DNA from: Paramesorhizobium deserti
GTDB taxonomy: Bacteria; Pseudomonadota; Alphaproteobacteria; Rhizobiales; Rhizobiaceae
Length of the DNA stretch: 64,000 bases
Direction: 5' to 3'
NCBI RefSeq assembly: GCF_001558695.1
Contig: NZ_LNTU01000012.1
Span: 124,001 to 188,000, forward strand
The notes below the pieces were generated by a model. The model worked only from the letters and a program-made list of their open reading frames with translations. It ran no database searches and was not told the DNA's origin. Made by a program: the position numbers and the translations under genes. Of the stretch, positions 10,757 through 11,426 are shown one piece after another. The first letter of the stretch is position 1. Each line of letters opens with the position of its first letter.

Positions 10757-10798
10757 TCAAAAAACAACACCCGCCGCGGGAGGAGGAGCGGCGGGTGT
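10757..10798 (-). terminator. Intrinsic terminator of the anti-SD hairpin array
   Basis: Perfect 11-base-pair stem (10767-10777 with 10788-10798) with loop UCCUCCUCCC on the minus strand, followed on that strand by UUGUUUUUU (10767-10759). It is both the last hairpin of the array and a classical Rho-independent terminator. The T-run exists only in the minus direction, which fixes the direction of transcription. Confidence 0.85.
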
Positions 10799-10880
10799 CG
10801 TTAGGTAAAGGCTGACCGGGAGGAGGAGTGTCAGCCTTTGATCGCTCAAGCCTCGGGAGGAGGAGAGGCTCTTGCGATAT
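10757..10880 (-). ncRNA. Cuckoo/CcsR-like sRNA unit 2: three hairpins with CUCCUCCC loops
   Basis: On the minus strand three consecutive stem-loops each expose CUCCUCCC in the loop. They are: 10876-10843 (6-pair stem plus outer 3 pairs), 10839-10807 (10 perfect pairs) and 10798-10767 (11 perfect pairs, also the terminator). The unit is about 127-130 bases from the equivalent hairpins of unit 1, so the two are a tandem duplication. The loop complements the Shine-Dalgarno sequence GGGAGGAG. Established knowledge: alphaproteobacterial cuckoo/CcsR RNAs carry CCUCCUCCC in hairpin loops and lie downstream of a DUF1127 gene, as here. RNA ends and processing are inferred. Confidence 0.75.
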
Positions 10881-10889
10881 TCCCAGGAG

Positions 10890-11005
10890 CTAACGGCACT
10901 CGCTGTGGGAGGAGGTACAGCGAGTGCCTTTAAGTAAGGTCGGCTTGGGAGGAGAAAGCCAACCTTCAATCGCTTGAGCTTGGGAGGAGGATAAGCTCTT
11001 GCGAC
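10890..11005 (-). ncRNA. Cuckoo/CcsR-like sRNA unit 1: three hairpins with CUCCUCCC loops
   Basis: First unit after the DUF1127 gene on the minus strand. Hairpins: 11003-10971 (outer 3 pairs, inner 6 pairs), 10966-10936 (11 positions, 10 Watson-Crick) and 10928-10895 (12 perfect pairs). In the second hairpin, position 10941 opposite 10961 is a C-A mismatch in plus-strand RNA but a G-U pair in minus-strand RNA, which supports minus transcription. Loops read UCCUCCUCCC, CUCCUCCC and ACCUCCUCCC. The order weak-medium-strong is repeated in unit 2. Maturation from a shared DUF1127 transcript is expected by analogy with Rhodobacter but not shown here. Confidence 0.75.
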
Positions 11006-11096
11006 ATTCGCTAAGACGCTTCACGCGTCCTTTGGTTCCTCAAAAGCGCGGCCCGTTTCAACGAGGTCTGACGGGCACACTGCTTTTTTTGTTCTG

Positions 11097-11131
11097 GAGC
11101 ATGATCTTATCCGAAAAGTCTGCACTTTTTG
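11097..11131. repeat. Rhizobial intergenic palindrome, family B, copy 1
   Basis: GAGCATGATCTTATCC followed by GAAAAGTCTGCACTTTTTG. It is an inverted copy of the element at 16671-16712 (CATGATC...AAAAAGT...ACTTTTT...GATAAGATCATG). Such elements are very frequent between genes in Rhizobiales. This copy lies between the DUF1127 gene and the hairpin array and would be part of the shared transcript. Confidence 0.7.
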
Positions 11132-11162
11132 CTGACGCTGACCTTCGGTTCGGGATCGTTGC

Positions 11163-11309
11163 TTAGCGAGCGCCGGACTGGCGAGCGACGTAAGGGATGT
11201 CGGCGCGGGAAATGCCGAGGTCGCTCAGCTCGCGGTTCGAAAGGCGGTTCAACTCGCCGACAGTTTCACGGTAACGGCGCCAGTTGTTGTAAGAGCGGAT
11301 CAGGTTCAT
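11163..11309 (-). CDS. DUF1127 small basic protein
   Basis: 48-residue protein, MNLIRSYNNWRRYRETVGEL then NRLSNRELSDLGISRADIPY then VARQSGAR. The LNRLSNRELSDLGISRADI core is the defining DUF1127 motif, and the net charge is strongly positive. ATG 11309 is preceded by a GAGG element. Known relatives: the Rhodobacter protein CcaF1 binds RNA and helps mature the cotranscribed CcsR RNAs; DUF1127 micro-proteins in Brucella are targets of the LysR regulator VtlR; Agrobacterium paralogues affect phosphate and carbon metabolism. Here it is followed on the same strand by six anti-SD hairpins with no terminator in between, so it likely heads that transcript. Confidence 0.9.
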   Translation of the reverse strand: MNLIRSYNNWRRYRETVGELNRLSNRELSDLGISRADIPYVARQSGAR

Positions 11310-11369: not shown

Positions 11370-11426
11370 ATATAATCCAGGCTTTCCCGGCGTTGCAGGC
11401 CCAAGTTTGCATAGCTGATCTGCAAA
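11370..11426 (-). promoter_or_regulatory. Candidate LysR-type site and promoter for the DUF1127/sRNA operon
   Basis: TTTGCA-N9-TGCAAA at 11406-11426 is a perfect palindrome of the LysR T-N11-A type, located 97 to 117 bases upstream of the DUF1127 ATG. A TTATAT at 11375-11370 on the minus strand could be the -10, with a poor -35 (CTGCAA, 17-base spacing), as is usual for activator-dependent promoters. VtlR/LsrB control is suggested only because Brucella VtlR is known to activate DUF1127 genes. The site has not been compared with a binding matrix. Confidence 0.4.

Follow-up and report, generated by a model that had tools for sequence, protein, structure and literature searches.

A DUF1127 gene followed by an array of anti-Shine-Dalgarno hairpins

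The window analysed here is a stretch of 64,000 nucleotides from Paramesorhizobium deserti (contig NZ_LNTU01000012.1), the minus strand of which carries a gene for a 48-residue DUF1127 protein and, behind it, six stem-loops whose loops all contain CUCCUCCC (Table 1). A preliminary description made from the sequence had placed at 10757-11309 on this strand a DUF1127 gene and a duplicated weak-medium-strong triplet of anti-Shine-Dalgarno (anti-SD) hairpins, closed by a terminator that is itself the sixth hairpin; the coordinates and strand fit what we find, and the remaining elements of that picture hold up as well, the terminator as a likely one. The motif CTCCTCCC starts on the minus strand at 10989, 10954, 10914, 10862, 10825 and 10785, with equivalent loops of the first and second triplets 127, 129 and 129 nt apart, and the six stem-loops form two three-hairpin units arranged head-to-tail. 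The full CCTCCTCCC is present in five of the six loops, the second (10954) having TCTCCTCCC, and no 230-nt stretch of 100 first-order Markov random sequences of 64 kb held more than two copies of CTCCTCCC. The 259-nt array folds into six hairpins at -116.2 kcal/mol as against a mean of -71.0 for shuffled sequences (z = -9.9; none of 200 shuffles as good), with unbroken stems of 6, 11 and 12 bp in the first unit and 6, 10 and 14 bp in the second. The structure is RNA-like on the minus strand; in unit 1, hairpin 2 contains a U-G pair that on the opposite strand would be a C-A mismatch. Hairpin 6 continues into a U-rich tail; it is absent from the output of a consensus terminator scan because that scan admits only loops of 3-8 and its own loop is one of 10. 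A coding role for the array was rejected, as the RNA-strand frames of at least 40 aa vary in position and sequence across the six loci of the genus; for the 70-aa frame at 10757-10969 Pfam gave no match.

Table 1. Features of the DUF1127 locus (positions in the window) and convergent ar14 pairs of the genus (contig:position)
Feature	Position	Strand	Basis or remark
VtlR/LsrB-type box AGATCAGCTATGC	11409..11421	-	reverse complement fits GCAT-N3-TG-N3-T
-10-like hexamer TTATAT	11370..11375	-	46 nt after box start
DUF1127 gene, 48 aa + stop	11163..11309 (codons 11166-11309)	-	PF06568, 58.7 bits, E 4.7e-16
Dispersed-repeat core, between DUF1127 and array	11099..11117	-	repeat search
ar14 unit 1 (119 nt)	10891..11009	-	RF02344, 91.5 bits
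Hairpin 1 inner stem, loop CCTCCTCCC	10976..10998	-	fold
Hairpin 2, loop TCTCCTCCC	10936..10966	-	fold
Hairpin 3, long stem, no U-run after it	10895..10928	-	fold
ar14 unit 2 (121 nt)	10762..10882	-	RF02344, 106.9 bits
Hairpin 4 inner stem, loop CCTCCTCCC	10848..10871	-	fold
Hairpin 5, loop CCTCCTCCC	10807..10839	-	fold
Hairpin 6 with its U-rich tail, probable intrinsic terminator of the entire array	10757..10802	-	fold
Convergent ar14 pair, own genome	L003 C37:399016 / L005 C37:401094	+ / -	
Convergent ar14 pair, G001	C12:1322 / 1494	+ / -	
Convergent ar14 pair, G002	C10:50179 / 50353	+ / -	
Convergent ar14 pair, G003	C3:134961 / 135250	+ / -	
Convergent ar14 pair, G004	C9:112280 / 114333	+ / -	one member under Rfam cut-off
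Convergent ar14 pair, G005	C3:94494 / 94888	+ / -	

The array comprises two copies of the αr14/NfeR1 RNA

Both units span positions 1-123 of the Rfam model RF02344 (ar14) and score above its curated cut-off of 58.8 bits. Each has three predicted hairpins with CCUCCUCCC unpaired in the loops, the full 9-mer being present in five of the six loops and UCUCCUCCC in one. The array is two tandem copies of the published αr14/NfeR1 family RNA, and a new RNA class is excluded. According to the available portions of the sources, the αr14/NfeR1 RNA of Sinorhizobium meliloti (Smr14C2, SmelC397) has three hairpins with an identical CCUCCUCCC in each and variable stems, and likewise shares with the units described here a length of about 120 nt and an occurrence in several copies per genome (PMC10746234, PMC7143759). 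The earlier suggestion that the three-hairpin tandem form might be new falls away, since the scores above cut-off identify the three-hairpin form as the known αr14 and tandem arrangements are also found in other genomes. An ar14 match was recovered in 194 of 199 genomes sampled from the taxonomic family (above cut-off in 184). The P. deserti genome has eight ar14 places, six of them above cut-off; in a motif search DUF1127 was missing within 1.5 kb at three of these six, and at five of all eight.

Conservation and duplication within the genus

Six genomes of the genus were compared, G000 (P. deserti) to G005, all of which contain ar14. At the DUF1127 locus a close tandem pair is present in G000, G003, G004 and G005 and a single unit in G001 and G002; the conservation in sister genomes on which the preliminary description had staked its reading is thus found, in duplicated form in four genomes and in single form in two. 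A tandem unique to the P. deserti genome is excluded by this distribution and by multi-unit arrays elsewhere. Over 500 nt from the DUF1127 start, locus L063 (Mesorhizobium sp. RMAD-H1) is identical to G005, L064 (Phyllobacterium phragmitis) to G003 and L065 (titled Brucella endophytica) to G001, and judging from this identity they are probably those same genomes.

Structural conservation was assessed on 10 aligned units from the six genomes (35 pairs, 350 cells). Standard pairs occupy 97.4% of the cells, changes on both sides occur in 10 of the 35 pairs, and the covariation score is 0.317; shuffles give 0.211, with none of 500 reaching the observed value, and slid partners no more than 0.149. 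The paired fraction, the number of double-change cells and the covariation score are higher than in any of the 500 shuffles or the slid controls; double-change pairs were as numerous in 52 of 500 shuffles and further pair types in all 500. By the covariation score, then, the stems are retained through compensatory change, and in the window the loop 8-mer is retained in all six hairpins with varying stems. An unrooted tree of the units places the four first copies on one side of a branch (100/100) with the second copies and single units opposite; a tree restricted to hairpins 1 and 2 failed to separate the copies. This topology is most simply read as the second unit being the counterpart of the single form and the first an extra copy.

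A second ar14 pair, convergent and with members 55 to about 1960 nt apart, is found in all six genomes of the genus (Table 1); no DUF1127 motif lies within 1.5 kb of that of P. deserti.

Multi-unit arrays behind DUF1127 genes in a wider sample

A wider sample of 81 loci was assembled from the window and the best 80 of at least 165 named DUF1127 relatives (hereafter the best-80 sample). Two or more such anti-SD hairpins are present in the 600 nt that follow on the DUF1127 strand in 67 of these 81 loci, as compared with one locus for the opposite strand and five for the upstream side, and 12 loci of the best-80 sample have six or more. An Rfam search of 14 loci hand-picked from the 80 yielded at least one ar14 unit in every case. 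Eight of these loci have two to four units; Mesorhizobium soli, for instance, has three and Aurantimonas sp. VKM B-3413 four. As in the window, trmFO occurs near DUF1127 within the fetched stretch in 44 of the best 80 of at least 165 relatives; at this trmFO-linked locus the hairpins number 0 to 9, with multi-unit arrays in Mesorhizobium and Aurantimonas. A TrmFO tree was built from 44 rows, namely the window and 43 named loci, one short-piece row having been excluded; on this tree hairpin number from minimum-energy folds required at least 20 changes (shuffled mean 29.1), an exact figure that is unreliable given that the count is noisy with degenerate loops and two counts disagree at some loci. 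The safe reading is that hairpins have been gained and lost repeatedly at the trmFO-linked locus.

A family-wide pattern count, with matches in at least 134 of 394 genomes, was dropped as a tally of tandem pairs because many matches resemble within-unit spacing or unrelated sequence, and served solely to single out the genus of the window and G196. At one place in another genus of the family (G196:C54:17810-18171) six successive pattern matches with a repeat of ~129 nt resemble a three-unit anti-SD array. A DUF1127-array locus titled Bacillus subtilis SK6B4 (L088) has the loop spacing of Pseudochrobactrum (L087) and is probably from a mislabelled or contaminated assembly. Two tandem DUF1127 genes lie 5' of the array in the Mesorhizobium-like loci L080, L096, L101, L107, L133, L138 and L142.

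Evidence for a probable shared transcript

Unit 1 of each of the four tandem loci in the genus closes with a long-stemmed third hairpin that no U-run follows, whereas unit 2 ends in a U-run. Given that the first unit is devoid of a U-run, both units probably share one transcript, as far as can be read from the sequence. Comparably, of the 67 loci of the best-80 sample with at least two hairpins, 49 have a U-run behind the last one, 16 have none behind any hairpin and two have it at an inner position; it follows only two of the 175 inner hairpins, and the last counted hairpin is without one in 18 of the 67 arrays.

This bears on one alternative, namely that the units are two independent αr14 genes with promoters of their own and only incidentally close to DUF1127. 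Such an arrangement would be in line with NfeR1 of Sinorhizobium, reported as a transcript of 123 nt that has a sigma-70 promoter to itself (PMC10746234), and with other ar14 copies of the P. deserti genome that stand alone. However, the Rfam matches of the two units are only 8 bases apart (10883-10890), and a search of the 700 nt upstream of each unit found no [CT]TATAT other than that 5' of DUF1127 (366 nt upstream of unit 1 and 493 nt upstream of unit 2), so that this search detects no NfeR1-type promoter directly before either unit and none between the DUF1127 promoter and unit 2. A scan for sigma-70-type promoters also gave no match at the locus, albeit with an E. coli consensus that equally misses the DUF1127 promoter proposed here. 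Taken with the missing U-run of unit 1, these observations make independent genes unlikely.

The GAAT at the 5' end of the units, invariant in 10 of 10, is a plausible cut site in a shared transcript, a conservation that shared descent alone could also explain. Between DUF1127 and unit 1 lies a dispersed repeat, the core of which, TTTTCGGATAAGATCATGC, has 52 places in the genome including this one at no more than two mismatches (none in a reversed control), followed, on reading by eye, by a GCCCGT...ACGGGC inverted repeat and CGCGCTTTT, which contains a short T-run. The dispersed repeat and the inverted repeat with its T-run could stop or divide the transcript between DUF1127 and unit 1. Reading by eye also showed a palindromic element similar to the repeat at the equivalent place in G002, the locus of which is one of the single-unit ones.

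A VtlR/LsrB-type box at a mostly constant distance from a -10-like hexamer

In the available text of the respective papers, three Brucella DUF1127 genes are reported to be positively regulated by VtlR (PMC12595884) and NfeR1 to be activated by LsrB in Sinorhizobium (PMC10746234). The VtlR box is given as GCAT-N3-TG-N3-T (PMC7486931) or printed as CAATGCAGCCATGCA (PMC12595884), and AGATCAGCTATGC, 112 to 100 nt 5' of the DUF1127 ATG, conforms to this consensus. The box is present in the same orientation in 49 of 81 DUF1127 upstream regions (the window and 48 of the best 80 of at least 165 relatives), as compared with means of 2.0 and 2.3 and a maximum of 7 in shuffles; in the opposite orientation it is found in 16 of the 81 of the best-80 sample versus 1.3 in shuffles. 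The shuffles were mononucleotide ones. The genomes are related, such that the occurrences of the box are not independent; the 49 box-bearing loci of the best-80 sample represent 47 distinct promoter stretches. With the pattern A-N3-CAGC[CT]ATGC, a [CT]TATA[TC] hexamer begins exactly 46 nt after the box start in 43 of these 49 loci (best 80 of at least 165, plus the window), and a second DUF1127-ar14 locus of the P. deserti genome has the box and spacing in identical geometry. Within the best-80 sample the box is present in 43 of 67 loci with two or more hairpins and in 6 of 14 with fewer, and since these hairpin-poor loci also carry it, the box tracks DUF1127 about as much as the RNA.

One place in the P. 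deserti genome (L008, C23:323255) gives a weak ar14-like match (31.5 bits), and 60 nt upstream of it lies a VtlR-type box; a single clear anti-SD loop is discernible there by eye.

Relationship to known systems

In the comparisons below we take CcsR1 of Rhodobacter sphaeroides to be the RNA labelled RS0680a, and Agrobacterium atu1667 is presumably a DUF1127 gene. The kinship with cuckoo/CcsR RNAs proposed in the preliminary description is right, in that a DUF1127 gene with related RNAs is a published locus type, defined, as far as the accessible text goes, as the CIN1 locus of short DUF1127 genes with CcsR-like RNAs (PMC10253847). The window has this organization, with a short DUF1127 gene and same-strand anti-SD RNAs behind it. 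It resembles in particular ccaF1-CcsR1-4 of R. sphaeroides, where, in the same source, a small DUF1127 gene and several homologous anti-SD RNAs form one precursor with one end terminator that is cut by RNase E (PMC10253847). It differs in that the Rhodobacter RNA (RS0680a) is described with two hairpins (PMC3927594) as opposed to three per unit here, and that the promoter there is assigned to RpoHI/RpoHII (PMC10253847) as opposed to the VtlR/LsrB-type box here. Unlike NfeR1, the array is in tandem behind DUF1127, with no promoter of its own in sight and a first unit without a U-run.

The VtlR/LsrB-regulated DUF1127 genes of Brucella and atu1667 of Agrobacterium likewise are small-protein genes with the same box consensus; however, they are described as protein genes, atu1667 as a small hypothetical protein (PMC7486931), and the portions of these papers at hand do not mention an RNA array (PMC12595884, PMC7486931). 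AbcR1 and AbcR2 are also tandem sibling sRNAs with anti-SD motifs, but are reported as members of the αr15 family with two motifs per RNA and separate transcripts of 120 and 114 nt (PMC7143759); one of the pair is said in the available text to be activated by VtlR in Brucella and Agrobacterium, and neither by LsrB in S. meliloti (PMC7486931).

Thus, the three-hairpin αr14 RNA and the DUF1127 locus type with related RNAs (CIN1; Rhodobacter ccaF1-CcsR1-4) are already known. What the present comparison appears to add is the tandem pair of the genus, the missing inner U-run, the recurring multi-unit trmFO-linked arrays and the VtlR/LsrB-type box with its mostly constant spacing to a -10-like hexamer. 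A literature search, confined to papers that combine at least three of five related terms and stopping short of the original papers on the cuckoo RNAs, CcaF1, CcsR and the DUF1127 genes of Agrobacterium, found none treating both DUF1127 and NfeR1; within the same limits as to the primary cuckoo and CcsR papers, DUF1127 with anti-Shine-Dalgarno retrieved only work on GlmZ-RapZ, and in searches on αr14 tandem referred only to AbcR or to cloning.

A proposed DUF1127-αr14 operon and its alternatives

We propose that the LysR-type regulator VtlR/LsrB would activate a single promoter 5' of DUF1127, giving a transcript that spans DUF1127 and both αr14 units and ends at the sixth hairpin. Cleavage in the unstructured GAAU linker that precedes each unit, perhaps by RNase E in analogy to ccaF1-CcsR1-4, would split this transcript into the small-protein mRNA and one or two RNAs of ~120 nt. 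The three interchangeable anti-SD loops of each RNA would then pair with purine-rich Shine-Dalgarno regions and block the translation of several mRNAs, and the doubling of the unit would double the loop dose per transcript. As with NfeR1, the loops of which are reported to silence ntrB (PMC10746234), transporter and nitrogen-regulator mRNAs would be the probable targets. We consider this reading likely, taking it as a whole: it starts from the observed gene, predicted hairpins, family, box/-10 geometry and missing inner U-run, and extends to a presumed transcription, VtlR/LsrB activation, processing, target set and dose effect.

As for the targets, perfect complements of the loop 9-mer, GGGAGGAGG, located 2-9 nt before an ATG number 16 in the genome (two overlapping) versus 6 in a reversed control. 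Since such matches are few, the loops probably act via shorter ones; the search of the P. deserti genome points to few genes, and no enrichment is claimed. By eye, one of these genes resembles a periplasmic sugar-binding protein, and one of the sites is antisense to an ar14 copy.

The array could also be viewed as a cis-acting 3' UTR, the hairpins of which protect or tune the DUF1127 mRNA while the loops act at most on the ribosome-binding site of DUF1127 itself. The recurrence of at least two hairpins behind DUF1127 in most of the best-80 sample is compatible with this, but half of the above-cut-off ar14 places of the P. deserti genome have no DUF1127 motif nearby, the fixed loop 8-mer amid changing stems fits pairing in trans, and NfeR1 is reported to act in trans (PMC10746234), making a purely cis role quite improbable. 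We give very little credence to a global titration, close to the ribosome-mimicking role raised earlier, in which under stress the loops would be decoy anti-SD sequences that compete for every strong-SD mRNA with 16S rRNA: the six near-identical loops per array and the description of the family as multicopy and related to stress (PMC3927594) accord with it, but the motif is all that speaks for mimicry here, perfect complements before ATG are rare in the P. deserti genome, and the mechanism tested for NfeR1, in the text available, is pairing with the translation initiation regions of specific targets (PMC10746234).

Implications

The locus joins three published threads which, as far as the available portions of the sources go, have apparently been unlinked so far, namely the NfeR1-type anti-SD RNAs, the VtlR/LsrB-regulated DUF1127 genes and the DUF1127-CcsR locus. 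To judge by its neighbourhood, the protein and the RNAs may be switched on together by one known regulator. More broadly, it is conceivable, though we put it at somewhat short of an even chance, that in Hyphomicrobiales many of the DUF1127 genes switched by VtlR/LsrB are operons with a dual output, a small protein and an anti-SD array, that the number of modules at the trmFO-linked locus (0 to 9 hairpins), raised and lowered repeatedly through duplication of units without inner terminators, serves as an evolutionary dial of silencing strength, and that phenotypes ascribed to DUF1127 may in part be those of the RNA. If co-transcription and common control were true, deletions of DUF1127 genes would call for reinterpretation in view of effects on the downstream RNAs, and the natural arrays of 3, 6 and 9 hairpins at one locus could be used to test the relationship between loop number and silencing strength.
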